A stretch of DNA of 27,747 bases from Bacteroidaceae bacterium (GTDB taxonomy: Bacteria > Bacteroidota > Bacteroidia > Bacteroidales > Bacteroidaceae), in contig JAFYYO010000430.1 in NCBI GenBank assembly GCA_017557475.1, positions 1 to 27,747 of the forward strand, read 5' to 3'. A program made the translations under genes and the position numbers. This document shows positions 7,501-22,726 of this stretch, piece after piece. The notes under the pieces were generated by a model, which saw only the letters and a program-made list of their open reading frames with translations, was not told the DNA's origin and searched no databases. Within the stretch, counting starts at the first letter, position 1, and each line of letters starts with the position of its first letter.

Positions 7501-7540
7501 AAGGCGCGCGATGTTTTTCGACAAAGCACGCCTTATTTTC
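7501..7540. terminator. Probable hairpin terminator downstream of the CotH gene
   Basis: AAGGCGCGC (7501-7509) pairs with GCACGCCTT (7526-7534) with one mismatch. The plus strand continues ATTTTC; the minus strand continues into an AT-rich run (ATATTATATAT). It lies about 95 bases beyond the CotH stop codon, past repeat array A, and could end that transcript. The U-tract on the minus strand is poor, so confidence is moderate. Confidence 0.5.
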
Positions 7541-7624
7541 AAACCAGGCACGGCTAATTGCCAAACTAAACACGTCTAATTGGCCAACTAGGCACGGCTA
7601 ATTGGCCAACTAGGCACGCTTAGT
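7537..7624. repeat. Intergenic 22-bp-period repeat array A (4 units)
   Basis: Four head-to-tail units lie at 7537-7558, 7559-7580, 7581-7602 and 7603-7624, each exactly 22 bases with no spacer. The shared core is CAACTAGGCACGGCTAAT with variants. Units 3 and 4 are identical over their first 16 bases. The array ends four bases before the CotH stop codon (7629-7631, minus strand). The units match those of arrays B and C: A3 and the first unit of array C differ at only three of 22 positions. Since 22 is not a multiple of 3, the array is not coding. Function unknown. Confidence 0.85.
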
Positions 7625-7628
7625 TTTC

Positions 7629-10600
7629 CTACTTAACGAGAACTTTCTTGCCGCCCTTGATGACAATGCCCTTGAAGCGGCTGTCCACGCGCTGTCCGGC
7701 AAGGTTGTAGAGGGCGTTCCCACGAAGGTCTTTAAGGTCCTTAGAGTCTTTAGCATCTGCAAGGCTGATGCCGTCCACGATAGACTCGAAGATGCGGAAA
7801 GTGGAACCATTGTCCGTCGTGCTTCTCGCATCGTTCCAGAACTTCAGCGGACCACCGCCTCCTCCGAACTGATTGATACATGTGTATTCGGTTCCAGGCA
7901 CACGCAGGACGAAGCCATCTCGGTTGGGAATCAAGTCCCAAGAATACTCGCCAGAACGCATCACTGCCAAATCTCCGACTGCCGTAAGCGACTCGCTGAA
8001 ACCGCTGCTACGATTGTAAACGACGACATGATAGGGGTCTCCGCCAAATGCCCACAAGTAGGGGTTGGAGAAGAGTTCATCCTCGGTAGCATCACTAACA
8101 GGATAATAGGGTTCGCTCTCTTGGCGGGCAACGTAGTAATCGCTGCGGATGGTCATATCGTACCAGTAGATGTCTGTCTCATTGGAAGAGAAGAAGAAAG
8201 GACCTTCCCACTGCACTTCGTAATCGATGGTTGTATCCTCCGTGATTTGATAAGGGATATCGTAGGGCTCCAAGAGTTTGACGAATGCATTTTTCCATTG
8301 GCTGGAAGGTGCAGGAGGCTCTGCTCCACTCGGCATCTGACGAGTCTCCGAACCTACAACTTCGCCATTGAAGATGTATCGGTTGGTGACTGTAAGCAAC
8401 GACTGCGAAGCCAATGCGAGGGCTTCAGTCGGGTCGAAGTCGCCAGCTTCCTCTATCATAAAGCGGTTGCCAGCATCGGGAGAGCTGTAATCATTTATAA
8501 CAAGGATTGAGGTGTTGTGATTGAAGTAGAGTGTCTGGCCATAGTCGCTGGTACATGTCAACATGTAGAGATATGAGCCATTGGGTTTCGTAGGATCGAA
8601 AGTGATGGGTGTGCCAAGCATGTTCACCCAAGTACCATTGTTATTGTAGGCCAGATACATCTTCGTAACTGGACTGTAGATGTAATTCTGTCCTTCAATG
8701 GTAATGATGGCAAACTGAAATTCCTCGTCCGTCGCATCCCATCGTTGCTGCTCTGTAGTGAGACCTGTGTGGTCTTCTGTCAATACCAAAGCACCACGCT
8801 CGCAACTGATGTAGTAAAGTTTGTCGTTAGCGAACTCGATGGGTTCAGCAGGTTCTGGTATCTCGGGACGGACGCCGTTGATGATGTCGTTGTAGATTTG
8901 CGTTGTGCGCGACTCAAGCCATGTAGCAGCCTTTAGTGCCTGTTGAGCATAGTTAGTATTGTCTCCCCACTTCGAGCGATTATCGTCGAAAGAGTACTTT
9001 GCAAAGTCGTAGTAATCCTGGCAGTACTCGAGGAGCTCCTGCAAACCGTTGTTCATGAACTCTTCCCACAGTTCGGTATAGACATCGTTGAGCGGCTCAT
9101 ACTTCCAGCGAAGGTCGCGAATGAAGTCGCGCACCTCGAACGCAGGCATATCAATCCAGTAGTTGTCGGTAGCTCTGCTCATGAAATAGGTCTTATTCTG
9201 CTCGTAGCCAAAGCACCAGTCGAGGTCCCAAACAGGACCAAAGATATACTTGCTATCATCGTCTTCGTAGTTCTCACGATAACAGAAAGTGCTCTTCGGA
9301 TGATAGAACTCGTAATTGAGCGTCAGTTCGTTCACCATCATAAAGCGAACGAGTTGCTCAATATCGACGTATCTCGAGATGTCCTGTCCGCGATAGAGTG
9401 CCGTCAGGAAGCGGTTGAAGTCCGTTTCGATGATTTCAGGTGTCAGGCTCGTTATCGTCGTCGGGTCGGAGAAGTCGGGCTCCTTAATGTTGATAGGCAG
9501 ACCATAAGGACTGGAACGGAACTTATATGCCTCATCGTAGTAGGAGTCCAACTCGAGCATAGCAGCTGCTGTCTCATCGGCAATATCAACGCTATTGTTC
9601 GAGAAGCCGACCTTCTCTGTGAAGTTGTAACTGCCACGATACTCGCCGTTGAGGTACAAATCAACAGGAACGATATGGTTGGCACCAGAAGCTCCCATCA
9701 GGTTGGCAGCCTTCATGCCGATGGCATTCGACATCAACGAACCTGTCTGATAGTTGGAAAGCAGCACCCACGACCTGCCCTTTGTCATACCCAGAGGCTT
9801 TAGCTTCTCGGCAAACTTCAGTCGATAAGGCTTCTTCGGCCAGCTCCAGCTACTATTGCCTCTGCCCTTGATCTGCACAGGAGTAGCATCCATCGACGGG
9901 AAGATGCCGTGACCATCGATGGTGATGGTAGCATTCTTGTACTCTGTCTTGCTGGTAATCGACAGTCCGTCTTCTGTGTCGATGTAGATGGTGGGCACCT
10001 CTGCCCTATCTGTCAGCCAATCGATGTGAACACGCATGCCTCGTCCATAAGGCTGCATCGAATAAGTCTCACCCTTTGTATCACTCTGTGGTAACAATAT
10101 CGTGCATCCTGTTCGAGCCACAAGATAGTAGATGTCTTTGTCGAAACGCAGGCGTTCACCAATATCTTCTTGAAGTCTGCCATCCACATAGACATGCACA
10201 TCTTCATCGGAGACGCCGAATGTGGGCGTCAAGCGTTTGCCGATGGCACCTATAGAAGCAGAAACAGTATCCTCCTCTATTACACAATTTACGGCACCGA
10301 AAAGTTGGTCGTTGGTCTTCTTGCTGAACTTGAAAGTGTCGAAAGTCGGGAAGTCCGGCTTCTGCTCACTCACAGAATCAACATCGTCAAGGTTATAAGT
10401 GAAGTTCTGACCGATGTTAGTCTCGATGACGAGCTGCCCGCCTTGCTCTGTTTGGTTGGTGACATACTCGAGCGGATAGGCCTCAACACGGCCATCTTTA
10501 AGGTAAACGTGCAGAGCTTCAGGGAAGACGATTGGAGCATACTCATTAGTAAGATTCCCGGGATCTGTGCCTGGGTCGGTGCCTGAGCCATCCTTATTAT

Positions 10601-11105
10601 AGAAGACAAAGCGCTCGTTTGCAGACGTTCCACCACTACCACTATAAGTCCCAAGCATGTTCGTCCCACTACGAAGATTCCAATAGTAACTGGTATCCAT
10701 AGTACTCTGTACGCTGAAAGCGCCGTCAGCTCCCTTGATAATGTTCCAATATTGCGAGCCGTCGTCAGGAGACAGGCTGGTAATCGTCATGTACTTATAG
10801 TACTTATCCACACGGCCATAAGTGAAGACAAGAAACTCGTTCGTAGCTTCATTGCGGATAGTGTAGCCAGATCGCGTATTCGTAATCACCCAATAGGCAT
10901 CGGCCGTCCTCTCCTCCTCGCCTGTTACGTAATAAATATAGGGATCGACATTGTGATAGGAGCCCAATCCAAGATATCCTTCCTCCTTGGTACAAGAGAT
11001 GTAATATACGCCATCTGCAATGGGAGAATCAGCAAGAGTCACCTGAGGGAGACTTCCCCACAAGGCAAAAAAGCATATTAAAAGAGTAAAAAAACGATTT
11101 GTCAT
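7629..11105 (-). CDS. Secreted CotH-kinase-family protein with lectin-like modules (1158 aa)
   Basis: The protein has a signal peptide (1-25, ending VTLA-D) and an N-terminal ricin-like module (about 30-170, beginning GVYYISC). A region at about 195-250 reads VYLKDGRVEAYPLEYV with LDDVDSV, and a CotH domain spans about 370-730. CotH hallmarks are VQIKGRGNSSW (410-420), KKPYRLKF, the region around YNFTEKVG, and FGPVWDLDW (622-630), which carries the acidic pair expected of CotH-type atypical kinases. The C-terminal third (about 755-1125) is a lectin-like module shared with the 1463-aa protein (GGGGGPLKFWND here, GGAGGSLKFWDS there). The extreme C-terminus is YNLAGQRVDSRFKGIVIKGG. CotH proteins phosphorylate secreted proteins in Bacillus spores, and similar domains occur in extracellular carbohydrate-degrading systems. 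Here it may modify surface proteins, but the substrate is unknown. The start is supported by a TAnnTTTG element 24 bases upstream. Confidence 0.9.
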   Translation of the reverse strand: MTNRFFTLLICFFALWGSLPQVTLADSPIADGVYYISCTKEEGYLGLGSYHNVDPYIYYVTGEEERTADAYWVITNTRSGYTIRNEATNEFLVFTYGRVDKYYKYMTITSLSPDDGSQYWNIIKGADGAFSVQSTMDTSYYWNLRSGTNMLGTYSGSGGTSANERFVFYNKDGSGTDPGTDPGNLTNEYAPIVFPEALHVYLKDGRVEAYPLEYVTNQTEQGGQLVIETNIGQNFTYNLDDVDSVSEQKPDFPTFDTFKFSKKTNDQLFGAVNCVIEEDTVSASIGAIGKRLTPTFGVSDEDVHVYVDGRLQEDIGERLRFDKDIYYLVARTGCTILLPQSDTKGETYSMQPYGRGMRVHIDWLTDRAEVPTIYIDTEDGLSITSKTEYKNATITIDGHGIFPSMDATPVQIKGRGNSSWSWPKKPYRLKFAEKLKPLGMTKGRSWVLLSNYQTGSLMSNAIGMKAANLMGASGANHIVPVDLYLNGEYRGSYNFTEKVGFSNNSVDIADETAAAMLELDSYYDEAYKFRSSPYGLPINIKEPDFSDPTTITSLTPEIIETDFNRFLTALYRGQDISRYVDIEQLVRFMMVNELTLNYEFYHPKSTFCYRENYEDDDSKYIFGPVWDLDWCFGYEQNKTYFMSRATDNYWIDMPAFEVRDFIRDLRWKYEPLNDVYTELWEEFMNNGLQELLEYCQDYYDFAKYSFDDNRSKWGDNTNYAQQALKAATWLESRTTQIYNDIINGVRPEIPEPAEPIEFANDKLYYISCERGALVLTEDHTGLTTEQQRWDATDEEFQFAIITIEGQNYIYSPVTKMYLAYNNNGTWVNMLGTPITFDPTKPNGSYLYMLTCTSDYGQTLYFNHNTSILVINDYSSPDAGNRFMIEEAGDFDPTEALALASQSLLTVTNRYIFNGEVVGSETRQMPSGAEPPAPSSQWKNAFVKLLEPYDIPYQITEDTTIDYEVQWEGPFFFSSNETDIYWYDMTIRSDYYVARQESEPYYPVSDATEDELFSNPYLWAFGGDPYHVVVYNRSSGFSESLTAVGDLAVMRSGEYSWDLIPNRDGFVLRVPGTEYTCINQFGGGGGPLKFWNDARSTTDNGSTFRIFESIVDGISLADAKDSKDLKDLRGNALYNLAGQRVDSRFKGIVIKGGKKVLVK

Positions 11106-11128
11106 GTTAATTAATAGTTAATGCGCTG

Positions 11129-11136
11129 CAAAGATA
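11129..11136 (-). promoter_or_regulatory. -7 element for the CotH gene
   Basis: The minus strand reads TATCTTTG, a perfect TAnnTTTG, 24 bases upstream of the start at 11105. No TTG sits at the usual -33 spacing. It is divergent from the strong promoter at 11180-11209; the two -7 elements are about 70 bases apart, so one regulator could act on both. Confidence 0.6.
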
Positions 11137-11179
11137 ACACTTTTTTCAACACATAACCATAAAAAAGTTCGGTTTTTAT

Positions 11180-11209
11180 TTGGCATATAATAAATAATGT
11201 ATATATTTG
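11180..11209 (+). promoter_or_regulatory. Full Bacteroidetes promoter for the 1463-aa gene
   Basis: TTG (11180-11182), 19 bases, then TATATTTG (11202-11209) match the TTG / TAnnTTTG promoter consensus at ideal spacing. The leader to the ATG at 11281 is about 70 bases and A-rich, as in highly expressed genes of this phylum. Confidence 0.8.
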
Positions 11210-11280
11210 TCGGGAAAAAGAGAGAAAAGAAAGTAATAATCTTACAATAAACCCTATTTATTAACTAAAAACAAATCATC

Positions 11281-14200
11281 ATGAGAAAAATCAAACTTCT
11301 CTTGGCCGCCGCGCTATCAATGATAGCATGGACAGGCGTGATGGCGCAGACAGTTGCAGAATATGAAGCTGCTCTTGCTGCCATTACTGATGGTGCCAAG
11401 TACCGCATCTGTACTGAGGTCGATGGCACAAAGTATTATGTGACCGCTGGAGGTACCTTGACAGCTGACAAGGCTAAAGGCGATGCCTTTGCCTTCGCAA
11501 AGATTACCGAGACATCGGGAGACGGTCCTTACGTAGTGGAAGAAACCACCCCAGCTGTTGGCATTCAATTGACCAGCAGTGCAGGTACGAGATTCACGAA
11601 TGGTCCTCTGAACAACAACTTGGCTGTTCTTGACGTTAGCAACTTCAGCACTTCAACGAACAACCGAGCCCCTTGGGAAAGTCAGGTATTCTTCTTGCAA
11701 GGCGGCAAGTTTGCCATCCGCACCTGCAACACTATTTATGCTGAAAGCAGTTGGAGAGACGCTGGCAGAACGTTCTGGACTTATAAAGTTGCTGAGGCAG
11801 TTGTTACTCCTCAGTATTCCTACACCCCCGCTTATGTTTGGGAACTGGAAGAGTACACAGAGACTGCCGAACAGGTAGCAGCCCTCGCTAAAGTACAGGG
11901 CTGGCCCGCATATATTCAGAGCGCCGCAGGCCTTGTAAAGGATTTCAACAAGTATTACAGCAATGCCAAGCAGACCACTGAAGGTTCTTACGAGGCTCTT
12001 CTTGATCAAGATTATACTACCTTCTTCCATTCTTGCTGGAGCGATGGCCCAGATGAAGACCACTATCTGCAAGCCGAGTTGTCTGAGGCTACTCAGAAGT
12101 TCGAGTTCTACTACAAGAAGCGTTCACAGAACAACAACAACCGTCCTACCAAGATCATCATCTCTGCCGGCAACGAGAAAGAAGGTGAGTTCACAGAAGT
12201 TACAACCATTAACTCAGGACTCCCCACTGAAGAATCCGTTATTGACTACATGTCAAGCCAGATTGACCTTGGTGCTGCCTATAAGTTTGTCCGCTTTACC
12301 ATCACAGAGACAAACAATAATGCAGAATGCAACGGTCACAAGTTCTTCACCTTCTCTGAGTTCTACATGTTCCCAGGCAATGATGCAGCTGCTCAACTTG
12401 CTCCCCTTTATAACCAATATTCCTCTACATTGGCAGGAGACCTTACAGAGACAGAGGTTTCACAGATTAATACTCTCGACGTGCTTTTGAAGACTGCCAT
12501 CGCTACAGTAACTGTTACCTATGAGCTCTACGAGGCTGACGGAACAACATTGGTTGGTTCGAAAGAAGTTGTACAGAAGCCCTATAGCGATATAGAGATT
12601 CCTTCTTCTCTGCAGCCCAACTCAACGTTCTATACTGTTACCACAGAAGGAACCATTGGCGATACAGACTGCACAATCAAGATTATCCGTACACTCAAGC
12701 CCGAGGTAGTTGGCGCATTGGATGAACTGTCGAACAACAAGGCTTACACCATTACCTGCGACCGCGGTGCTATGCTGACCAACGGCACAACCATCGCCTC
12801 CACATCAAACAGCGAATATGCAGCATCCGCTCCCGGCAAGTTCGCTATCATCAGCTATGAGGACAACTACTACATCTACAGCGTAGCAGACAGCAAGTTC
12901 GTTGCAAACAATGGTTATCTGGTTGAGAAACCCAGCAATGGTGTGCTCGACGCTATCCAGATGACTCCGATGACCACCGTTCCCTACTTCTTCTACTATT
13001 TTGTAACAGAAAATGGAAACTATGGTGTCAACACCAACGGAACAGGCGCTCTCGGAGGCATTGTCATCAACAGCTGGATGAATGCTGACCCAGGCAACCA
13101 GTATTACATGATTGAGGCAGCTGACTTCGATCCAACCAATGCATTGAAGGCTTTGGACGAACAGTTCCATCCCGCTTATTCTGTAATATACAAGGTAAAG
13201 GATGCCTTCGATAACATTATCTTCACATCCGATCCCGAACCCGTAGAACAAGGTACTGTCATTACCACTCTGCCCGAGAAGTATCACCGTACATTCTACA
13301 CCTACGATGAGATAAATGTAACTGTTGAGACAGCCGGTGGCACCGATGCTGTGTTTACAGCTACATGGAACGGTCCGTTCGAGATTTCCGAGAACTTCGA
13401 GAACGCACACTGGTACGATATGGCAATACGCTGGGAAACAGGTACAAAACCATATTACGTAACGACTGCCGTCAAGGATGGTGACGGTGCCTATAAGACA
13501 CAGTTGGCCAACACAGAGGGTCTCGTTGAGGATTCCTATCAGTGGGCATTCGCAGGTGATGGTTACAACGGCTTCAAGGTTATCAACAAGGCTGAAGGCG
13601 CAAGCAAGAGCTTCGGTTGGACAGATGCCGCACAGACCAATGCCGGTATTCCTACCGTAATGGCTGACGACGAAGGTAATCACCTTTGGAAGATTGTTGC
13701 TTCTACCAAAAACACTGTTCCTGCTGGCTCATTCTGCCTGAATGTTCCCGGCACAAACCTCTACATCAACCAGTATGGTGGTGCAGGCGGTTCCCTTAAG
13801 TTCTGGGACAGCGCCAACAATGTAGGCGACCCAGGTTCTGCCTTCACAGTAATGGAGGTTCCGAGTAACTTCGCTGAGTTCGTTGAAGAAGAAATTTCTC
13901 CAGCTCTCGACGTTACAGGCTACTTCGCATTTACCGACGAGGCTAAGGCTGCTATCGGCTACGATGAGAGCTACAAGACAGAATGCCCCTTCGAGCAGTA
14001 CAAGAGCATGAAGGATAACTTGGCTGAAGCTTTGAAGGACATCAACAACTTCGTACTTCCTCCAACAGGCGTTTACTTCCTGAGGAACAAGGCCTATACT
14101 AGCAAGAACTACATGGGCATTGATCCCAGCGACGCAAACATGTATGGTGACTACGCAGCACCAAATCAACTCAAGAATTATGTGACGTTGATTAAGACAG

Positions 14201-15672
14201 GCGACGTTACTTATAAGATTGGTTTGATGGGCAAGTTCGCTCCCGCTACTGTAGCACAGAGCACACCCGTAAAAGCTAGCACCGAAGCTGGCGAATACAC
14301 CGTTGTTATTACGAAGCCCGGCTATGCAGCATTCCAGGCTGACACAGAAAGCGACATGTCTTGCCTGCACCGTCGTGCAGAGGGTGACATCGTAGGTTGG
14401 TCAGCTGATGCCGATGCTTCTATGTGGGCAGCAGAAGATGCTCAGAGCATCAACCTCACTGTTGGCGAAGCAGGCTATGCTACCGCTTACCTGCCCTTCC
14501 CCGTAGAGATTGGTCAGACTCTCTCTGTTCCTGCTGCTAAGGGTGCTTGGACATTCGACGACGGCACAACCGGAACTCTGACAGCCACTAGTGGTGTATC
14601 AGTTGCCGATGGCGTTGTAACCGTTCCTAAGGGCGGCAACTTGGCAATGTCTACTGGAGTTGAAGAACTCGGCACTTACACCTTCATGTTTGATGTTATG
14701 GTTCCTGCAGACCAGGCAACAGATGCCTCACTCAGTGGTTACACTGCCCTCTTCCAGAACAAACCCAACAATGACGGTGACGGAAGCTTCTTCATCTACT
14801 ACAAGAAGAAGGATGGCACAAGAAAGGTTGGTCTTAATGCAGGTGGCTTAGGCTACGGAGGCGCTATTGAGTTGGGTACTTGGTACCGCATTGTATTCGT
14901 GGCAGAAAACTCTCAGGCTACTGTATATGTTAACGGTGAACAGACTGGAGCTGCTACCGCTGCAGTTGCAGAACACTGGTTGTTGAGTAATACGGTTCTC
15001 TTCTTTACCGACAACGACGGCGAGGAGAATGAAGTTAAGGCAGACGAGATCCGCTTCTGGGATGTAGCCCTCACAGCTGACGAGGTTGCAATGCTCGGCG
15101 CTTATGGCGATCCCGAACCTGTATCGGAAGGCGTTACTGCTTACACTGGTCTCATTGAGGAAAGCCAGAAGTATCTGGAACTGATTCCTGTTGAAGAAGT
15201 TATTCCTGCATATACAGCAGTTATCCTGAAGGGCGAACCCGCTGTTTATGAGTTTACTATCCCCGCTGTTGAGGCAGACGAAGATGGTAATGGTCTGAAG
15301 ATCTACTACGGTACCGACGTTGACGGTGGCGAAGCTCTCGTCAAGGAGAAGGCTGAACCTCTTGAGAACGACCTCTTGGGTACACTCGAGCCTATCCCAG
15401 CTGAAGGCTACTATGTTCTGGCTAAGCCCGAAGGTGAAGTAATTGGCTTCTATCTGGCTGATGAAGGAACCATCGCAGCAGGCAAGGCTTATCTGGATGT
15501 TCCCGAAGGATCAGGTATTAAGGCTATCATCTTTGCTGACGACGCTGCTACTGGCATTGCCAATATCGAGAAGAATGTTGAGGATGGTCGCATCTACAAC
15601 GTCGCTGGTCAGCGCCTGAGCAAGATGCAGAAAGGCGTTAACATCGTAAACGGCAAAAAGATTCTCTTCTAA
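11281..15672 (+). CDS. Very large secreted lectin/discoidin/LamG mosaic protein (1463 aa)
   Basis: After a signal peptide (1-22, ending GVMAQ), the N-terminal module (about 23-190) is paralogous to that of the 1508-aa protein. An F5/8 type C-like domain follows at about 221-365 (LLDQDYTTFFHSCWSD). A long module at about 480-855 is shared with the CotH protein (YTITCDRGAM; DFDPTNAL; WYDMAIR; FCLNVPGTNLYINQYGG). Another lectin-like stretch lies at about 930-1055 and a LamG domain at about 1086-1276 (WYRIVFVAENSQATVYVNG). The C-terminus is YNVAGQRLSKMQKGVNIVNG. No catalytic residues are recognisable, so it is probably an exported glycan-binding or surface-layer-like protein. Codons look strongly biased (AAG, AAC, TTC, GGC), and the promoter and downstream terminator are strong, so high expression is inferred. 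A 52-codon ORF follows 20 bases after its stop. Confidence 0.9.
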   Translation: MRKIKLLLAAALSMIAWTGVMAQTVAEYEAALAAITDGAKYRICTEVDGTKYYVTAGGTLTADKAKGDAFAFAKITETSGDGPYVVEETTPAVGIQLTSSAGTRFTNGPLNNNLAVLDVSNFSTSTNNRAPWESQVFFLQGGKFAIRTCNTIYAESSWRDAGRTFWTYKVAEAVVTPQYSYTPAYVWELEEYTETAEQVAALAKVQGWPAYIQSAAGLVKDFNKYYSNAKQTTEGSYEALLDQDYTTFFHSCWSDGPDEDHYLQAELSEATQKFEFYYKKRSQNNNNRPTKIIISAGNEKEGEFTEVTTINSGLPTEESVIDYMSSQIDLGAAYKFVRFTITETNNNAECNGHKFFTFSEFYMFPGNDAAAQLAPLYNQYSSTLAGDLTETEVSQINTLDVLLKTAIATVTVTYELYEADGTTLVGSKEVVQKPYSDIEIPSSLQPNSTFYTVTTEGTIGDTDCTIKIIRTLKPEVVGALDELSNNKAYTITCDRGAMLTNGTTIASTSNSEYAASAPGKFAIISYEDNYYIYSVADSKFVANNGYLVEKPSNGVLDAIQMTPMTTVPYFFYYFVTENGNYGVNTNGTGALGGIVINSWMNADPGNQYYMIEAADFDPTNALKALDEQFHPAYSVIYKVKDAFDNIIFTSDPEPVEQGTVITTLPEKYHRTFYTYDEINVTVETAGGTDAVFTATWNGPFEISENFENAHWYDMAIRWETGTKPYYVTTAVKDGDGAYKTQLANTEGLVEDSYQWAFAGDGYNGFKVINKAEGASKSFGWTDAAQTNAGIPTVMADDEGNHLWKIVASTKNTVPAGSFCLNVPGTNLYINQYGGAGGSLKFWDSANNVGDPGSAFTVMEVPSNFAEFVEEEISPALDVTGYFAFTDEAKAAIGYDESYKTECPFEQYKSMKDNLAEALKDINNFVLPPTGVYFLRNKAYTSKNYMGIDPSDANMYGDYAAPNQLKNYVTLIKTGDVTYKIGLMGKFAPATVAQSTPVKASTEAGEYTVVITKPGYAAFQADTESDMSCLHRRAEGDIVGWSADADASMWAAEDAQSINLTVGEAGYATAYLPFPVEIGQTLSVPAAKGAWTFDDGTTGTLTATSGVSVADGVVTVPKGGNLAMSTGVEELGTYTFMFDVMVPADQATDASLSGYTALFQNKPNNDGDGSFFIYYKKKDGTRKVGLNAGGLGYGGAIELGTWYRIVFVAENSQATVYVNGEQTGAATAAVAEHWLLSNTVLFFTDNDGEENEVKADEIRFWDVALTADEVAMLGAYGDPEPVSEGVTAYTGLIEESQKYLELIPVEEVIPAYTAVILKGEPAVYEFTIPAVEADEDGNGLKIYYGTDVDGGEALVKEKAEPLENDLLGTLEPIPAEGYYVLAKPEGEVIGFYLADEGTIAAGKAYLDVPEGSGIKAIIFADDAATGIANIEKNVEDGRIYNVAGQRLSKMQKGVNIVNGKKILF

Positions 15673-15692
15673 CTAACATTCAAGATTCAAAT

Positions 15693-15851
15693 ATGAAAAA
15701 GGTCTATTTGATTCCTGCCTTGAAGGCAGAAGAGGCTCAAGCAGCTCAGATGCTGGCAGAGAGCCTGCCTATCATCAAAGACAAGACCGTCAGCGGTGAT
15801 GATGCTCTCACTAAGGAAAGTTTCGCCTGGGATATCTGGGGCGAAGAATAA
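15693..15851 (+). CDS. Small 52-aa protein of unknown function
   Basis: The ATG at 15693 opens 52 codons ending TAA at 15849-15851, 20 bases after the stop of the 1463-aa gene and 24 bases before a strong terminator. It is therefore almost certainly in the same transcript. The peptide begins MKKVYLIPALKAEEAQAAQM and ends FAWDIWGEE. It has no hydrophobic signal-peptide core, no cysteine, a helix-prone N-terminal half and an acidic, tryptophan-rich tail. Codon use resembles the upstream gene (GCT, AAG, GAA, CTG). From memory, short Bacteroidales proteins starting MKK-x-Y-x-x-P with an acidic/aromatic tail are common and mostly uncharacterised; I cannot verify homology here. Possible roles are a peptide precursor, a small accessory protein of the big neighbour, or a signalling peptide. 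Confidence 0.75.
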   Translation: MKKVYLIPALKAEEAQAAQMLAESLPIIKDKTVSGDDALTKESFAWDIWGEE

Positions 15852-15875
15852 GACATTCACTTAAACTCTTTAACG

Positions 15876-15910
15876 AAGGCAGTTCCCTCATGGGGGACTG
15901 CCTTTTTTTT
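15876..15910 (+). terminator. Strong Rho-independent terminator
   Basis: Arms 15876-15887 and 15893-15904 (AAGGCAGTTCCC with GGGGACTGCCTT) form a 12-bp stem with one G-T wobble and a 5-base loop, followed by a run of eight T. It ends the transcript of the 1463-aa gene and the 52-aa ORF. Confidence 0.92.
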
Positions 15911-15941
15911 GTGTTAAAGAAGACAACCTCGCTGGCAGCGT

Positions 15942-16051
15942 TGACGAATTAGCCACGCATAGTTGGCAAACATAACGTGGATTGTTTGCAATCATTACAC
16001 GTGTTATTTGCAAACATTACACGTGTCGTTTGCAGACATCACGTGGATCGT
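15942..16051. repeat. Intergenic 22-bp-period repeat array B (5 units)
   Basis: Five units of exactly 22 bases start at 15942, 15964, 15986, 16008 and 16030. Units 2-5 begin TTGCA or TGGCA and share CAAACATTACACGTGT or CAAACATAACGTGGAT variants; unit 1 is more divergent. Units 3 and 4 contain the palindrome ACACGTGT. The array sits 31 bases after the terminator T-run and 70 bases before the TTG of the next promoter. Unit 4 differs from the seventh unit of array C at three positions. No spacers, no coding potential, function unknown. The rest of this 345-base gap holds only the terminator and promoter. Confidence 0.85.
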
Positions 16052-16120
16052 TCTACAAAGCTCCATGAGGAATCAATTCCTACTCCCTAATGATATTGTC
16101 CAAAATAATCAGCAGAATTC

Positions 16121-16151
16121 TTGGAGCTAAGAGTAAAAAGCAGTAACTTTG
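16121..16151 (+). promoter_or_regulatory. Full Bacteroidetes promoter for the DUF3472 gene
   Basis: TTG (16121-16123), 20 bases, then TAACTTTG (16144-16151). A candidate TTG start codon at 16149 lies inside this -7 element, so translation cannot begin there. The ATG at 16197, about 45 bases downstream, is the real start. Confidence 0.85.
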
Positions 16152-16196
16152 CATACGACATTACACATAATTAATAATTATACCTTATTATATATT

Positions 16197-19100
16197 ATGA
16201 AAAAGGGATTAATCGCACTAGCCTGTTTGGCTCTGACGTCCATCATGCCGACCTACGCCACCGACTGGCAGGAAAAGACAGACACCATTTGGCCTGCTCG
16301 TCACTATCGCGAACTCAACGGACTGGCGACAGGCGATCAGCGTTCGAAGTCCTCCATTAGCTGGAGTTATACTGAGGGTTCAGTCCTCGTCTATGGTATT
16401 CACTTCCCAACGGGACACGTTCGTGCCGATGCCGTGTTCAAGGGAATAGGCGGCAAGCGTGTCACCTTCGGTGTGCGCATCGTGCATCCGGCAACCGGCA
16501 CTGTTGTACTTGAGACCAGTTCCACAAGCACCAAAACCACATCGGCACAGCAGACAATGGAAATCATGCCCGACACGGAGATGCCCTACGACGGCTGGTA
16601 TCGCTTCGAGCTAACTTGTCCTAACGGCTCGTCAACACTTAGCCAACTCGATCTTCTCCTCTTCCAACGCACATCTACACTCAAAATCACCGACTCCGAC
16701 ATATTCATGGCTCCCAGCGTACACCTATGGTGGAGCACAAAAGTGCCAGGCGCTCCTTCAGGGCAAGCCTACAACTGGAGCTACCTCGAAGTGATGTATC
16801 CCAGCGAATATCGTCAGCCAGCCACCTATCAGATGGCTATCGGCACCGACGGCATGTACTCTGGCATACAGATGCCTACGCACGGATTGGACGATTATGG
16901 GCACTCTGTACTCTTCTCAGTATGGGATAATGGCGACGTAGATAAAGACAAGAACCTGCCCGACATCATGCGTTCCGCTGCCGTTGACCTCGGTCCAGAT
17001 GCCTATGCGACTCGTTTCGGAGGCGAAGGCACAGGCTCGAGCATACGCTATCGCCGCGATGACTTCTGGGAGTTCGACCATTGGGTACAGTTCCTCTACA
17101 ACGTGCGTCCCGACATCATCTGCGTCACAGACTCACTCGGAAACGTCACAGAATACGAAAGCACCCTGCAGACCGTCTGGTTCAAGATGGCAGAGGAACC
17201 CGACTGGCACTATATGGGCACCCTTCGAATGGCAGGTGCCAACCGCCTCACCTCGGGCATCTACTCGTTCCTGGAGAACTTTGGCGACAGAGGCGGCAAC
17301 CTGATGCGTCGCTGCTACTTCCGCAACGGAGCCATGCGCTCAGCCGCTGATGGCAAATGGTATGCGCTCAATCATGCCGGCTACGGACATACGCAAGACA
17401 ACGGCGCACGCAACTCTCGCTACGACTACGGGCACGGCCTTACCAGTCTCTTCGATAAGACCTTCTACTTGGAGACAGGCGGCTACATGGGTAAGCGAGA
17501 TAGTCTCGACACTTGCGAGCCTCCAGTTCAGGGCGAGATGCCTTGGGTAGATACCATCAACATTGCCCGTCTGGAGCAACGCGTAGATGAAGGTGTGCTT
17601 CACTATCAGACAAAGACCACACAATCGCGCATAGAATTAACCCGCACCGTCTCCGACCCTGCCACTTGGAAAGTCATCAAATGGAGCGATGAAGAGACTG
17701 TCGGCGAAGGCGACAACGGACGCGCTACCATGATACTCGACGGCAACATCAGCACCTACTATCACAACAAATGGAAGAACGGCGAGGTAAAGTATCCCCA
17801 CTACTTCGACATCGAAGCACCTGATACCGTCACGATAAGTTCCATTGGGCTCTATCAGAGCCGTGAAAGCGAGTATCGCGCAAAGAAGGTGACAATCTCC
17901 AAGTCTGATAATGGAACGAGTTGGAAGACCGTTGGCTCCAACCTTACCATAGAGGATACCGACTACCCAACCATTCCTTTGCCACAGCCAGCCACAGGTA
18001 AATACTTCCGCCTGCGCTTCACGTCTGGCTACGGAACCAACCTCGTCATCAACGAAGTTTACTTCAAGCATGAGTACCGCCTCGATGACCTGCTTGCCCT
18101 CGCACAGCAAATCATCGATGAATCCGACACTTGGAGAGCTTATGCACCTGCCGACTTAGAGGGACTGATGGCCGTCTATGCAGATGGGACCTGCACCGAT
18201 AAGGAGGCTTTGCTTCAAGCTCTTGAGGACCTCGCCCATACGGCACAGCCTCTCACCTATGGTGTCGTCGACAAAGCAGAAAGCTTCACGCCGTTGGCAG
18301 TCTATCAGCTTCACAATCTCTCGGGACGTGGCGACGTCATCTCAACTGCTGAAGGCGTGCCCACCATTGTGGCTTCCAATGCATCGAATGCACTCGAGGG
18401 ATACCGCCAGCCATGCTCCGTAACCAACCCATACTGCAATTGGATGATACTTCACTCCGACAAGTACCACGAGTACTACCTCTACAACCTCGGAGCCAAG
18501 AAGTATCTCAACGTTGATGGCTCAACCGTAATACTTTCCGAGACACCCATTCCAGTCAACATTCAAAAGAGTGGCAAAGGCTTTTCGATAAGCTTCAATG
18601 GCAAGTATCTGGGCGTGAGTCCAAGCATAGAGAAGCCTGTGGTGCAAGTCTCATCAGCTGGCACCAACTCCATCTTCCAGTTGCGCACCAATCAATACTT
18701 GAGACCCGATGAGAGTGTCGTATATGAAATGGCTACCGAAGCAGAGCAAGCGCTCCATGACAACATCTCCGAACTCATCTATCAACAAGCCTTGCAGACC
18801 TACGCGAAAGCCTTCGTTGCCCAGCCAGACTTGAGTTCACTACTCATCCGCAACAGCACGTATCTCACCTCCAACGCCAACACGACACAACAAACTGAGC
18901 ATAATCTTGCCAAACTCATCGACAAGAAGACCGACACATACTACGAGACATGGTATAGTGGCATCACATGGCCGCAGGAGATGTCCTACATACAGGCGCA
19001 CCTCAGCACCGTTCTGGAGGCCTTTGCCTTCAGCTTCACACCCTCGCAGAACCCAGATTACGGTCTGCCTGACATTCCTACAGACATCATTGTCTCTACT

Positions 19101-19607
19101 TCGACCGCTCCCAAGAACTTCGTGCCTGTGATTGAACTTACGGAAGGAATGCCATCCTCTATCGATGAGAGCTACGTCTCGCCCGTCATCTTTACCGACG
19201 GAAACACGCGATACATACGCTTTCAGGTCATGCAAACCATCGGCCAACGTGCTGATAGCCACATCTTCGCCATGAGTGAGTTCCAAGTACACAAGGCTAT
19301 CATCGACGAGGAAGCATCGCCTTATTACATGAAGTCTAACGTGAAGGAAGCCTTCGATGCACTATTGGCGGAAATCCAAGCAATGCGTCCCCTCCTCGTA
19401 GCAAACACTGCTACAGCCGAAGACCGCGAGTCTTTGAGCCAAGCTATTGAGCGAGCAGAACTTGCTCTGCAGACTGCCGATGAGATAAAACTGCCCTTCT
19501 CCGACCTCTCTTCAAGAGAGCAAGTCATCTACAACCTTGCCGGTCAGCGTGTAAACAAGATTGGAAAAGGCATTTACATTGTGAATGGAAAGAAAGTATT
19601 GAAGTAA
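16197..19607 (+). CDS. Secreted DUF3472-family protein with discoidin and lectin-like domains (1136 aa)
   Basis: The ATG at 16197 is chosen because it gives a clean signal peptide (MKKGLIALACLALTSIMPTYA) and the longer reading starts inside the promoter. The N-terminal part (about 25-145) looks like DUF5077. The next part (about 160-430) matches DUF3472, with WHYMGTLRMAG, YSFLENFGDRGGNLMRRC and the asparagine/tyrosine-rich NSRYDYGHG segment. An F5/8 type C domain lies at about 476-620 (ILDGNISTYYHNKW) and a ricin-like stretch at about 697-830. A second discoidin-like domain spans about 878-1028 (KLIDKKTDTYYETW). A helical linker and the tail YNLAGQRVNKIGKGIYIVNG close the protein. DUF3472 proteins are usually found among glycan-degradation genes, but their reaction is not established to my knowledge. 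It is probably exported and carbohydrate-associated. It has its own promoter and terminator and so is likely monocistronic. Confidence 0.88.
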   Translation: MKKGLIALACLALTSIMPTYATDWQEKTDTIWPARHYRELNGLATGDQRSKSSISWSYTEGSVLVYGIHFPTGHVRADAVFKGIGGKRVTFGVRIVHPATGTVVLETSSTSTKTTSAQQTMEIMPDTEMPYDGWYRFELTCPNGSSTLSQLDLLLFQRTSTLKITDSDIFMAPSVHLWWSTKVPGAPSGQAYNWSYLEVMYPSEYRQPATYQMAIGTDGMYSGIQMPTHGLDDYGHSVLFSVWDNGDVDKDKNLPDIMRSAAVDLGPDAYATRFGGEGTGSSIRYRRDDFWEFDHWVQFLYNVRPDIICVTDSLGNVTEYESTLQTVWFKMAEEPDWHYMGTLRMAGANRLTSGIYSFLENFGDRGGNLMRRCYFRNGAMRSAADGKWYALNHAGYGHTQDNGARNSRYDYGHGLTSLFDKTFYLETGGYMGKRDSLDTCEPPVQGEMPWVDTINIARLEQRVDEGVLHYQTKTTQSRIELTRTVSDPATWKVIKWSDEETVGEGDNGRATMILDGNISTYYHNKWKNGEVKYPHYFDIEAPDTVTISSIGLYQSRESEYRAKKVTISKSDNGTSWKTVGSNLTIEDTDYPTIPLPQPATGKYFRLRFTSGYGTNLVINEVYFKHEYRLDDLLALAQQIIDESDTWRAYAPADLEGLMAVYADGTCTDKEALLQALEDLAHTAQPLTYGVVDKAESFTPLAVYQLHNLSGRGDVISTAEGVPTIVASNASNALEGYRQPCSVTNPYCNWMILHSDKYHEYYLYNLGAKKYLNVDGSTVILSETPIPVNIQKSGKGFSISFNGKYLGVSPSIEKPVVQVSSAGTNSIFQLRTNQYLRPDESVVYEMATEAEQALHDNISELIYQQALQTYAKAFVAQPDLSSLLIRNSTYLTSNANTTQQTEHNLAKLIDKKTDTYYETWYSGITWPQEMSYIQAHLSTVLEAFAFSFTPSQNPDYGLPDIPTDIIVSTSTAPKNFVPVIELTEGMPSSIDESYVSPVIFTDGNTRYIRFQVMQTIGQRADSHIFAMSEFQVHKAIIDEEASPYYMKSNVKEAFDALLAEIQAMRPLLVANTATAEDRESLSQAIERAELALQTADEIKLPFSDLSSREQVIYNLAGQRVNKIGKGIYIVNGKKVLK

Positions 19608-19623
19608 AAGGCACTAATCAAAG

Positions 19624-19655
19624 AAGGCAGCCCCTGCAAAGGAGCTGCCTTTTTT
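19624..19655. terminator. Bidirectional terminator between convergent genes
   Basis: AAGGCAGC (19624-19631) pairs with GCTGCCTT (19644-19651), followed by six T on the plus strand (19650-19655) and by TTCTTTG on the minus strand. It lies between the DUF3472 stop (19607) and the PspC stop (19677) and can serve both. Confidence 0.85.
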
Positions 19656-19676
19656 CGTTTTCCTTCTGTTCGGACA

Positions 19677-20495
19677 TTAGAACATATGAAAGAGCATCTT
19701 GCCCCACATAGTAAAGACGAAGATAAATGGAAACAGTGCGCAGATGCCGATGACAATGAGTATGGCCTTCAGGCAACCTTTGTTCTCGTTCTTGACAACG
19801 ATTGGTTCTGAGTCGTTCATCACTTGCTGAGCGAGGTTGTCGGGTGTGATATCCTTACCTTGTTGACGCAAACGATCCTCTGGAGTTATGGCTGCAGGGG
19901 TCACAAGCCACATTACTATATATATAATAGGAAGGGGAAGGCCGATGCCGAGAAGCGTGAGGGCGATGGCTCCGAGACGCCAAATGACTGGTTCGCCTGC
20001 TTCGAAGTACTTTGCTATACCAGAGCAGACGCCGCCCAAGACCTTGTCGTCGGCACAACGATAGAAGCGATGCGTGCGAACATGCTCACGACCTTTGTCA
20101 TAGGTGTCGCGAGTAAATCGTTCTGCATCCTTGGCAAACTGCTTGAAGTCTTCCTTGAAATGAGTTTCCGAGCCTGTATTGCTCTCCTGTTTATTGTAGT
20201 TCGCGAAGGCACTTTCGGCTTTGTTGTTAGTATCGCCAGCTATCTGTTCGGCATTTCCAATCGTGTCGATAATTCCCTTTACTACAGAGATATCGATGGC
20301 CGTCATACCTGCTTCACGCTTTTTCCACAGGAGTTCTGCCACACGATGCTCAATATCGTCGGCAATCTCATCGCCTCCTTCCTGACGTGAGAAGTAGCGT
20401 TGCATACTATTCAGGTAGTTCTCCAAGAGATTGTAAGCATCCTCATCTATATTATATAATGTACCGAAAAGGTTGATGCTGATGTTCTTTTTCAT
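19677..20495 (-). CDS. PspC-domain inner-membrane protein (272 aa)
   Basis: The N-terminal cytoplasmic part (1-60, LFGTLYNIDEDAYNLLENYL...DDIEHRVAELLW) is the form seen in Bacteroidetes PspC proteins. A charged linker (about 100-140) leads to the PspC domain at about 143-205 (RCADDKVLGGVCSGIAKYF) with its hydrophobic segment (about 170-198). A second membrane segment lies near 243-265. PspC-family proteins take part in envelope-stress (phage-shock-like) responses in other bacteria; the partner here is unknown. It lies 27 bases downstream of a PadR-type regulator gene in the same orientation, an arrangement that suggests an auto-regulated stress operon driven from 20876-20883. Confidence 0.9.
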   Translation of the reverse strand: MKKNISINLFGTLYNIDEDAYNLLENYLNSMQRYFSRQEGGDEIADDIEHRVAELLWKKREAGMTAIDISVVKGIIDTIGNAEQIAGDTNNKAESAFANYNKQESNTGSETHFKEDFKQFAKDAERFTRDTYDKGREHVRTHRFYRCADDKVLGGVCSGIAKYFEAGEPVIWRLGAIALTLLGIGLPLPIIYIVMWLVTPAAITPEDRLRQQGKDITPDNLAQQVMNDSEPIVVKNENKGCLKAILIVIGICALFPFIFVFTMWGKMLFHMF

Positions 20496-20522
20496 TGTTT
20501 TATCGTTTTATGTGATTAATAT

Positions 20523-20846
20523 TTACTGCTTTAGAATGTTTACGGTCCTTAGGATTTCCTCCCAACTGGCATCAAGCTGAGTGAGAGCTTCCTGTCCATC
20601 ATCGGTCAGGACATAGTACTTTCGAGGCGGTCCTTGCGTACTCTCACGCCATTCATACCCGAGAAGTCCGTCCCTTTTCAACCTTGAGAGCAAGGGGTAG
20701 AGCGTTCCTTCCATCACAATCATCTCGGCTTCATGCAACCTTTGAATGATGTCGTTCGCATAGCAAGGCTGGTGTCGGAGCAAAAGCATGATGCAGTATT
20801 CGAGCATACCTTTGCGCATCTGCGATTTCGTGTTGTCCGTATTCAT
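20523..20846 (-). CDS. PadR-family transcriptional regulator (107 aa)
   Basis: A short winged-helix repressor. The PadR signature is visible as the first helices (MLEYCIMLLLRHQPCYANDI), the recognition region MEGTLYPLLSRLKRDGLL and the wing GPPRKYYVLTDDGQEAL. The length is typical of the small PadR subfamily, which has a single C-terminal dimerisation helix. It is the first gene of a two-gene operon with pspC. A perfect 7-bp inverted repeat at 20897-20915, just upstream of its -7 element, is the likely operator, so it probably represses its own operon in response to an envelope or small-molecule signal. Confidence 0.92.
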   Translation of the reverse strand: MNTDNTKSQMRKGMLEYCIMLLLRHQPCYANDIIQRLHEAEMIVMEGTLYPLLSRLKRDGLLGYEWRESTQGPPRKYYVLTDDGQEALTQLDASWEEILRTVNILKQ

Positions 20847-20875
20847 TTATTATAACTTTTCTCGTTTTGATACTG

Positions 20876-20883
20876 CAAAGGTA
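20876..20883 (-). promoter_or_regulatory. -7 element of the padR-pspC operon
   Basis: The minus strand reads TACCTTTG, a perfect TAnnTTTG, 30 bases upstream of the padR ATG (20846). The -33 TTG is not at ideal spacing; the inverted repeat occupies that region. Confidence 0.65.
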
Positions 20884-20896
20884 GGCATAATATGAA

Positions 20897-20915
20897 TACC
20901 TTGTATCGCAAGGTA
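20897..20915. promoter_or_regulatory. Candidate PadR operator (inverted repeat)
   Basis: TACCTTG-TATCG-CAAGGTA is a perfect 7-bp inverted repeat with a 5-base spacer. It lies 13 bases upstream of the padR -7 element, over the -33 region. Its position and symmetry suit a dimeric winged-helix repressor. Assignment to PadR is by location only. Confidence 0.6.
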
Positions 20916-21019
20916 CTAAACTTTAACATCTTTTAATACTTGGGGCGTTCTTCCCGTCGATTAGGCACATCATGTTGAAAGGCGCTCCCAATGCGGGTTT
21001 CACACGATACAGGCCAAGT

Positions 21020-21195
21020 CGGCAGACTAGGCACGGCTAATTGATCAACTAGACGTGGCTAATTCGCAAACTAGGCGTGGCTAGTTGGCGAACTAGGCGT
21101 GGCGTGTTTGAAATCATAACGTGTAATGTTGGCAAACATAACGTGTATCATTTGCAAACATAACGTGTGTCGTTTGAGGACAATCCACGTAATGT
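21020..21195. repeat. Intergenic 22-bp-period repeat array C (8 units, two subtypes)
   Basis: Eight in-register 22-base units start at 21020, 21042, 21064, 21086, 21108, 21130, 21152 and 21174. The first four are subtype 1 (CAAACTAGGCGTGGCTAGT and variants, matching array A). Units 5-7 are subtype 2 (CAAACATAACGTGTATCAT and variants, matching array B), and unit 8 is degenerate. The switch happens without any change of phase. Units 6 and 7 differ at three of 22 bases. The array lies between the divergent padR and alkaline phosphatase genes and ends 66 bases before the TTG of the phosphatase promoter. The remainder of this 488-base gap holds the two promoters and about 100 unremarkable bases at 20916-21019. 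Confidence 0.88.
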
Positions 21196-21241
21196 TTTAC
21201 GAGTTGACGAGCAGACAAAGGACTCTTACAACTAAAAGATG

Positions 21242-21334: not shown

Positions 21335-22726
21335 ATGAAAAAGCGTATCTTTTCAATGCTGAGCATCCTCGTGATTGCTCTTGCTGCCTTTGCTGAAGGC
21401 AGAGCCAAGTATGTGTTCTATTTCATCGGTGATGGAATGGGTGTGAATCAAGTCAATGCAGCCGAGACCTATCTTGGTGCGCTCGAAGGCCGCATTGGTA
21501 TTCAGGAACTTTGCTTCCCCAGCTTCCCCTACTTTGGCCTCATCAACACTCAGAGTGCCACGAATGGTGTGACCGACTCGGCTGCAGGCGGAACTGCTTT
21601 GGCTTGCGGGCACAAGACGAAGAACGGTGCTGAAGGCATGCTGAAGGACTTAGAGACACCCATTACAAGCATTGCTCAATGGGCTCATGATGCAGGAGCG
21701 GCAGTTGGCGTATCGACCAGTGTGAGCATAGATCACGCGACTCCTGCGGCTTTCTACTCGCATGTTCCAAAGCGCAGCATGGCTTACGAGATTGGTTCTC
21801 AACTGCCAGGCACGGGCTTTGACTTCTTTGGAGGAAGTGATTTCGTTAAGCCCAACAATCCAGATGGCGGTCCAGACCTCTATGCACAGGCTCAGGCTGG
21901 CGGCTACACGATTGCTCGCGGCTACAAGGATTACCAGAAGAAAGCCAAGAAGGCCGACAAGATGATTCTCTTCCAAACTGAGGCTGCAAGCAAGATCGAC
22001 AACAGTTGCATCCCTTATGCACTCGACCGTACGAAGGACGACCTTACCCTGCAGGACATCACTCGCGCAGGTATCAACTTCCTCATGAAGAAGCAAGGAC
22101 TTCGCGATGGCTTCTTCTTCATGGTAGAAGGCGGCAAGATCGACTGGGCTTGCCACGCAAACGACCCCACTTTCATCAGCGAACTCATCGATATGGACAA
22201 TGCCGTTAAGGTGGCTTACGAGTTCTATCAGCAACATCCAGACGAGACACTTATCGTCGTAACTGCTGACCACGAGACTGGCGGCCTTGTTCTAGGTCGC
22301 GGAGCTTACGAGTTGAACCTCAAGGCAATTGCTTCTCAACGCATGAGTATGGTGAAGCTCGAGCGCGAACTCAAGGCTAAGAAGGAGAAGATGGGCGACG
22401 CTTTTACATGGGAAGAAGGCAAGAAGTTCCTCACCGAGAACTTTGGCTTCTGGGGAGATGTGAAGGTCAGCGACGACCAGGCAAAGCGTCTCGAGAACTC
22501 TTTCAACGAGTTTAAGGCAGGCAAGGAAGGTGCTGATCGCGTTTGCAGCACAGTTAAGCACGTCATGTCTGAGTGCGCAATGATTGGTTGGCAGAGCGGC
22601 GGCCACAGCAACGGCTACGTTCCCGCCTTCGCAATCGGCGTAGGAGCAGAACAGTTCCATGGTCGCTTCGACAACACCGAAATCTGCAAGAAGATGGCAA
22701 AGGCTGCAGGTTGGGAAGTTAAATAA
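21335..22726 (+). CDS. Periplasmic/secreted alkaline phosphatase (463 aa)
   Basis: A phosphomonoesterase of the alkaline phosphatase superfamily. After a signal peptide (1-20, LSILVIALAAFA) the metal-site motif YFIGDGMG appears (Asp33). The nucleophile motif TDSAAGGTA follows (Ser82), then IDHATPAAFYSH (Asp133-His134), VEGGKIDWACHANDP, VTADHETGG and finally GGHSNGYVP near the C-terminus, supplying the remaining metal ligands. The length is normal for the family. It would release phosphate from organic phosphates outside the inner membrane. It heads an apparent operon with the GH43-like gene 28 bases downstream and the coiled-coil gene. A full promoter, an A/T palindrome and repeat array C lie upstream. 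No PhoB-box assignment is attempted. Confidence 0.95.
   Translation: MKKRIFSMLSILVIALAAFAEGRAKYVFYFIGDGMGVNQVNAAETYLGALEGRIGIQELCFPSFPYFGLINTQSATNGVTDSAAGGTALACGHKTKNGAEGMLKDLETPITSIAQWAHDAGAAVGVSTSVSIDHATPAAFYSHVPKRSMAYEIGSQLPGTGFDFFGGSDFVKPNNPDGGPDLYAQAQAGGYTIARGYKDYQKKAKKADKMILFQTEAASKIDNSCIPYALDRTKDDLTLQDITRAGINFLMKKQGLRDGFFFMVEGGKIDWACHANDPTFISELIDMDNAVKVAYEFYQQHPDETLIVVTADHETGGLVLGRGAYELNLKAIASQRMSMVKLERELKAKKEKMGDAFTWEEGKKFLTENFGFWGDVKVSDDQAKRLENSFNEFKAGKEGADRVCSTVKHVMSECAMIGWQSGGHSNGYVPAFAIGVGAEQFHGRFDNTEICKKMAKAAGWEVK

Follow-up and report, generated by a model that had tools for sequence, protein, structure and literature searches.

Three intergenic 22-bp arrays in a Bacteroidaceae contig as probable members of a dispersed, lineage-specific superfamily of quasi-palindromic tandem modules

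A stretch of 27,747 nucleotides from a Bacteroidaceae bacterium (the whole of the DNA analysed, hereafter the window) carries spacer-less tandem arrays of 22-bp units in three separate intergenic gaps, which raises the question of what these units are and why their length stays constant while their bases differ. The original prediction proposed that selection acts on the spacing, with cooperative protein binding on one DNA face or a structured transcript as possible roles. We suggest that the arrays very probably represent, in this window, a superfamily of quasi-palindromic 22-bp tandem modules that are dispersed between genes and specific to one lineage of gut Bacteroidales; the superfamily is apparently undescribed. 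What was observed in the sequences about this repeat, from its period and dyads to its co-variation, dispersal, turnover and genic surroundings, is given below.

The arrays are real in all three gaps. Tandem Repeats Finder (TRF) returned period-22 rows at 7526-7618 (score 109), 15984-16039 (84), 21021-21103 (96) and 21106-21176 (93), all with 0% indels, and an additional, weaker and overlapping row of the same period at 21098-21167 (score 56). Segments of 66 bases reached up to 53 matches at lag 22 and 49 at lag 44, compared with at most 35 at other lags from 10 to 59. In 200 dinucleotide-preserving shuffles of the window, 18 arrays scored at least 50, three of them with period 22; the best shuffle score was 71, and none reached 84. 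Units from different gaps had been described as being as alike as neighbours, and the distances given for them were exact: A3 and C1 differ at 3 positions, as do B4 and C7. B2 and C6 also differ at 3 positions, the same distance as for the closest neighbours within loci. At the array edges, units B1 and C8 are degenerate, B1 differing from B2 at 11 of 22 positions and C8 from C7 at 11. By TRF, array A starts 11 bases earlier than stated (7526, not 7537); it overlaps the stop codon end (7629) of a minus-strand CotH-kinase-like gene. Array C is two sub-families fused, the left one nearer to A and the right one nearer to B. Upstream of array B is a terminator-like hairpin (15875..15905), a kind of site that occurs 10 times over the whole region compared with 11.7 in shuffles, i.e., without excess. 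After array B comes a TAACTTTG box, a motif of the type found in Bacteroidota promoters. The features are collected in Table 1.

Table 1. Repeat arrays and neighbouring features in the window
Feature	Positions	Strand	Basis or remark
Array A, about 5 units of 22 bp, type CTAGGCACGGCTAATTGGCCAA	7526..7635	.	TRF, lag matches, unit comparison
CotH kinase domain gene, ends at array A	7629..11105	-	
Terminator-like hairpin, 14 pairs and T tail, after upstream gene	15875..15905	+	Consensus match
Array B, 5 units of 22 bp, type ATAACGTGTNNNGTTTGCAAAC	15942..16051	.	Flanked by terminator-like hairpin and DUF3472 gene
DUF3472 and F5/8 type C gene, downstream of array B	16197..19607	+	
PadR-type regulator gene, divergent from phosphatase gene, array C in between	20523..20846	-	
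Array C left part, units nearer array A type	21010..21108	.	TRF, unit comparison
Array C right part, units nearer array B type, 22-bp register unchanged	21098..21200	.	TRF, unit comparison
Alkaline phosphatase gene, downstream of array C	21335..22726	+	

The prediction had implied that such arrays recur in related genomes, and there they are present and widespread, in both motif-based and motif-free counts. The window's DUF3472 protein, used as query, gave 32 loci with titles naming Bacteroidaceae, Prevotellaceae or Bacteroidales MAGs, mostly from the rumen or elsewhere in the ruminant gut among those with a stated source; the lineage is known here mainly from rumen MAGs. On the stretch from PspC/PadR to alkaline phosphatase, the nearest relative was G001 (the genome of locus L001), with a DNA identity of 88-89%, in a comparison covering 139 genomes from the genus to which G001 belongs. 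The loci and the window together span 659 kb; among their intergenic arrays with a period of at least 10, 39 of 74 have period 22 under a simple ORF filter and 47 of 88 with a codon-model gene caller. The fraction is similarly 76 of 130 in genome G015 (393 kb, 20 pieces). In the 11 of these pieces whose selection did not rest on a known match (220 kb), periods 22 and 44 make up 50 of 72 arrays, and 36 of the 105 gaps of at least 66 bp contain such an array; in the nine pieces chosen for a known match they make up 31 of 58, and in ten unselected pieces of G253, 23 of 35. The repeat comprises about 1.6% of the sampled sequence of G015 and around a tenth of its intergenic DNA. Intergenic arrays of periods 14, 15 and 16 are numerous too in the pieces of this genome, L063-L082 (6, 8 and 13, respectively). 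Period 22 was found in 9 of 19 intergenic arrays of genus pieces without the motif, in 8 of 15 of family pieces, where all eight were short (2.0-2.6 copies), and in 2 of 15 of the 40 phylum pieces; the piece totals include six all-N pieces (L120, L167, L172, L180, L194 and L195). The last of these counts speaks against a general Bacteroidota trait, and the motif-free counts by rank thus indicate a trait concentrated in one genus-level lineage and fading outward.

Modules fall into two classes by their core, CGTG/CACG in class I and CATG, CGCG or GCGC in class II. In a motif-based search, pairs of TTKGCAAAC 14-44 bases apart were sought, with the reversed pattern (pairs of CAAACGKTT) as a control. 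In 18 relatives' genomes, 99 pairs were found in 13 genomes, 95 of them at a spacing of 22 or 44 (the exceptions were 18, 18, 21 and 30), and the control gave none. At least 26 of 121 genomes matched in the genus sample. In the family sample 23 of 151 genomes matched, with scattered spacings and a few at 22 outside G001, and the control also matched in six of these genomes. The phylum sample gave 4 of 80 genomes including G001, the other three with one match each and none at 22. One genome of the family sample, G167, had 21 matches to the reversed control, which points to a repeat of its own. A phage origin was rejected, as both repeat patterns gave no match in viral contigs.

That the register is kept while bases change had been put forward as a test, and it is borne out by motif spacings and by mismatches relative to indels. 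Spacings between repeated intergenic 9-mers in G015 peak at 22 (127), 44 (50) and 66 (18), compared with 2, 0 and 0 at 23, 45 and 67 and with 22, 5 and 4 at 21, 43 and 65. Among 89 matching flank units one module past the TRF ends, 27.3 matched best at the exact register, while each other offset received 1 to 7. Period-22 arrays had 16.9 mismatches per indel position (over 8894 compared bases, 1278.7 mismatches and 75.9 indel positions; 154 of the 182 arrays free of indels), compared with 4.9 in arrays of other periods (425.9 and 86.2; 70 of 109 free of indels). TRF prefers indel-free arrays, a bias that is common to the arrays of other periods. Spacers outside arrays showed 2.4 substitutions per indel, a rough guide from eight short comparisons in which events were counted. 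Period 23 was rare, with 4 intergenic arrays in the 33 sequences compared with 39 of period 22. In a few species a period of 21 accompanies or replaces that of 22, and arrays with palindromic units and a period of 21 or 42 lie at L013:18616-18699, L019:7496-7591 and L029:5649-5718. The claim that spacing is under selection is thus partly supported, namely in that the register is kept as bases diverge.

Each module consists of two arms that are largely reverse complements around a core, with a second dyad at the module junction (TTKGCMAA or GCAATTGC), 11 bp from the core dyad. The self-complementarity of period-22 consensuses exceeded that of shuffles with z of 10.9 in G015 (74 arrays), 10.5 in G253 (48), 8.3 in the loci (45) and 10.9 in G267 (9), compared with 0.6, -0.8, 4.9 and 2.3 for intergenic arrays of other periods and 1.9, 1.2 and 2.9 for coding arrays; as a group, the other-period arrays of G015 had no palindromic excess. 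An early, weak test on single consensuses had given p < 0.05 for 10 of 39 intergenic period-22 arrays and 2 of 21 of other periods. When 96 distinct class I units were centred on CGTG, 425 of 672 arm cells were paired compared with 283.9 expected, with all four Watson-Crick types present at each distance from 2 to 8. Restriction to arrays with a single CGTG (87 distinct units of 90 arrays) gave 380 Watson-Crick pairs in 609 cells (251.9 expected), and one array per genome (13 genomes) gave 53-62 of 91 over ten draws compared with 31-38, in excess of every permutation. Only arrays with CGTG entered the class I test. Class I pairs at distances 5 and 9 from the axis were near expectation (5 slightly above). 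For CATG-centred units, 127 of 224 arm cells were paired compared with 93.7, those at distances 4 and 5 being below expectation. This arm co-variation indicates that pairing has been kept more than a fixed base sequence, though it could partly reflect a template-switch 'correction' of quasi-palindromes rather than selection. One contig end (L225:6-203) forms a single large palindrome of 22-bp modules, which may be an assembly fold-back.

Class II takes the form of a cassette in which three 22-bp palindromes, all near-perfect, follow one another (TTGC...CATG...GCAA), with arm variants that include TTAAAT...ATTTAA and TTATAC...GTATAA. The run length was exactly three in 24 of 26 runs and two in the other 2; one four-unit run occurs in G267 (L228). 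No such runs were found in the genus, family or phylum pieces. The palindromic register extends weakly for one module on each side at the exact offset (4.8 and 5.0 of 11 pairs, compared with 1.6 to 3.8 at other offsets). Across the 139 genus genomes, pairs of GCAATTGC ranged from 0 to 123 per genome, with the highest counts in G008 (123), G267 (80), G015 (65), G270 (36), G005 (35), G016 (22) and G012 (22); they were absent from 104 genomes, and in some of the 35 matched ones they were not at spacing 22. Among the matches listed, cassette centres were genome-specific.

Comparison of orthologous gaps shows turnover of the arrays, with other units or no array in place. Gap C holds arrays of differing units in the window, L001, L002, L003 (by eye), L004 and L031, and measures 36 bp instead of 304 in L027 and G196. 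Arrays in gap B occur in L001, L002 and L031, with none in L011, and those in gap A in L001 and L002, with none seen in L031. By eye, the orthologous gaps A-C have no common ends; the cassettes of G267 partly share flanks, with common aligned stretches of up to 282 bp whose starts and ends differ. The mean distance between class I units within a genome was 8.26, compared with 9.15 when permuted (sd 0.25; minimum 8.35 in 500 permutations). Dispersal, partly common flanks and concerted change together argue that blocks of modules are copied within genomes. In gap C of L031 (L031:15526-16380), two copies of a long GC-rich repeat, partly of period 44, lie around 22-bp modules.

How does the repeat compare with known systems? 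Plasmid iterons, such as the 22-bp ones of R6K, are spacer-less direct repeats of about two helical turns; however, they have few copies, one origin, one sequence and a cognate Rep protein, whereas here many chromosomal arrays change in sequence. REP/BIME elements (GTAG and CGTC super-families, some with RAYT transposases) are dispersed intergenic palindromes, often in hundreds of copies. The present repeat resembles them in its short palindromes, extragenic position, high copy number, mosaic clusters and genome-specific sequences, whereas REPs bear an unpaired GTAG or CGTC tag and form mostly head-to-head dimers, often with spacers. The present modules run head-to-tail at 22 bp without spacers, and neither tag was enriched in 176 unit consensuses (GTAG 14 compared with 25.9 in shuffles, CGTC 18 compared with 23.9); within 12 bp of class II cassettes, counted without a control, GTAG occurs in 2 and CGTC in 8 of 26. 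The CGTC-type REPs of Bacteroidetes are described with stems of 8-9 bp, loops of 4-5 bases and no transposase link (PMC3733652), and such a stem-loop is close in size to one class II palindrome. Because these REPs, on that account, need no transposase, it is the missing tag and the head-to-tail 22-bp tandem that separate the two. The original prediction, which knew of no named bacterial element of this form, was too strong here, as BrickBuilt exists: a 23-nt spacer-less intergenic minisatellite/MITE of Porphyromonas gingivalis with 19 dispersed copies, whose array length differs between strains and whose description also mentions 22-nt tandem repeats in that species (PMC4596501). Like the present repeat it is a dispersed, spacer-less intergenic tandem of about two turns in Bacteroidales; BrickBuilt has one unit family of 23 nt and a leader and tail with terminal inverted repeats, and is reported only from Porphyromonas, whereas the present repeat has 22 nt, many unit sequences per genome and co-varying arms. 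BrickBuilt is the closest in form and REP/BIME the closest in behaviour. The TAACTGA intergenic direct repeats of Beggiatoaceae, of which 169 sets are reported from one draft genome, are similarly abundant, with a unit of 7 bases compared with 22 here (PMC4679880). A CRISPR array is ruled out by the lack of spacers between repeats. No published description of the 22-bp repeat was found in the literature searched, which comprised open-licence papers.

A Y1_Tnp search of the 139 genus genomes gave a match in 62, over the cut-off in 53, and 6 of the 9 array-rich genomes had one; no Y1 transposase was found in G001, G008, G016 and G253 despite their arrays or cassettes. Strong Y1 matches were present in 4 of the 7 genomes with at least 20 cassette pairs compared with 22 of 132 others (p 0.023, post hoc), and no class II cassette lay within about 1.5 kb of five Y1 genes. 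A RAYT/REP link was rejected because Y1 presence is inconsistent across array-rich genomes. Two array-rich genomes have 22-bp arrays less than 1.5 kb from Y1 transposase genes (L155:525-695 and L240:1048-1219). Absence of the hairpin nuclease SbcD as a permissive cause was also rejected: SbcD (TIGR00619) was over the cut-off in only 13 of the 139 genomes, and at least 5 cassette pairs were present in none of these 13 and in 14 of the other 126, which is no real contrast.

Gene context bears on whether the repeat acts as RNA or as DNA. In G015, 79 arrays of period 21, 22, 43, 44 or 66 divide into 51 in co-directional, 14 in convergent and 14 in divergent gaps, compared with 133, 22 and 31 among all gaps of at least 66 bp; in the 33 loci the arrays are 28, 6 and 18 and the gaps 122, 16 and 45. 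No clear preference for a gap type or gene orientation thus appears in either set. Array-to-start distances below 100 bp are rarer than expected (17 of 172 compared with 48.4). When the count is limited to CGTG-core arrays whose arms pair at 4 or more positions, 22 in co-directional gaps are sense and 19 antisense (p 0.76), i.e., without bias. Neighbouring class I arrays lean to the same strand (23 compared with 12, p 0.09), and CGTG leans to the G-rich strand of its piece (41 of 61, p 0.01), weak hints of a possible replication-strand effect. An RNA-level element, with hairpin rods in transcripts that serve as 3' ends, RNase barriers or terminators, would account for the co-varying arms, for the position of array A at a stop codon and for the folding of arrays A and B, which as RNA exceed shuffles on both strands (z -2.9 to -4.8), array A as one rod (-4.8 for the minus and -4.0 for the plus strand). 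However, the lack of a sense bias, the arrays in divergent gaps (14 of 79 in G015; 18 of 52 in the 33 loci), the place of array B after a terminator-like hairpin, the weak plus-strand fold of array C (z -1.7 left and -0.1 right, little or no better than shuffles) and the absence of Rfam matches above the gathering score in the window and six array-bearing loci all speak against it. We therefore consider this explanation improbable, and the structured transcript of the original prediction is disfavoured; since there is no strand bias and all gap types are used, the evidence points to DNA rather than RNA.

Another account would be ordinary minisatellites, in which tandem duplication and slippage produce the arrays and the period is kept by descent, without function or special copying. 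Unit turnover at orthologous gaps and mixed divergence are typical of these, and all units may descend from one 22-bp ancestor. Yet period 22 dominates over dissimilar units in G015, indels per mismatch are about three times rarer than in other arrays, and neither arm co-variation nor the triple cassette is expected from slippage, such that this reading is disfavoured and, in our view, very improbable. A more serious competitor is that the arrays are docking sites, each dyad binding a dimer of a nucleoid or segregation protein on one helix face and thereby organising the chromosome or its supercoiling. A dyad spacing of 11 bp and a strict 22-bp register are compatible with one-face binding, and independence of transcription, rarity near start codons and the triple cassette also fit; there is an analogy in SegB, which binds palindromes scattered over archaeal chromosomes (PMC12284271). 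One sequence-specific protein, however, should fix the arms, which vary yet tend to stay complementary; the core of class I, CGTG, is no palindrome in its own right, and cassette counts run from none to over a hundred between species of one genus. We regard docking as possible but unlikely.

The kept pairing, the probable action at the level of DNA and the probable copying of blocks lead instead to a BIME-like, self-spreading intergenic repeat, which we slightly favour as the best explanation as a whole. The repeat would work at the DNA level because either strand could form module hairpins or a cruciform. Blocks of modules would be copied by recombination or by hairpin-using template switching, resulting in spread and homogenisation inside a genome, and tolerance for arrays would be largely confined to spacers at a distance from promoters. 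A module length of two turns would be kept because copying, or a bound structural protein, needs it. For the self-spreading mechanism taken by itself, we see the case as evenly balanced. Against the explanation as a whole, the searches brought up no copying enzyme, and Y1 is absent from several array-rich genomes. The arm pairs that fall short (distances 5 and 9 in class I, 4 and 5 in class II), the arrays of period 21 or 42 and the weak plus-strand fold of array C also stand against it, and the strand leanings of class I arrays are not predicted by it. Moreover, a purely selfish repeat would not need the degree of regularity seen in the class II triple and in the tight register, and this could mean a host function.

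We speculate, with considerable doubt, that the 22-bp palindromic modules and the three-hairpin cassette might form a dedicated chromosomal DNA system of this lineage, in which a candidate architectural or copying protein reads shape over sequence. If true, this would be a bacterial repeat code with pairing and spacing as its conserved features. In any case the arrays amount to a natural experiment, as the sequence changes but pairing and spacing persist. They also allow a clear test of the idea that two-turn DNA arrays are read by shape in some bacteria. A practical point concerns annotation, as crude ORF calls overlie a number of these arrays.
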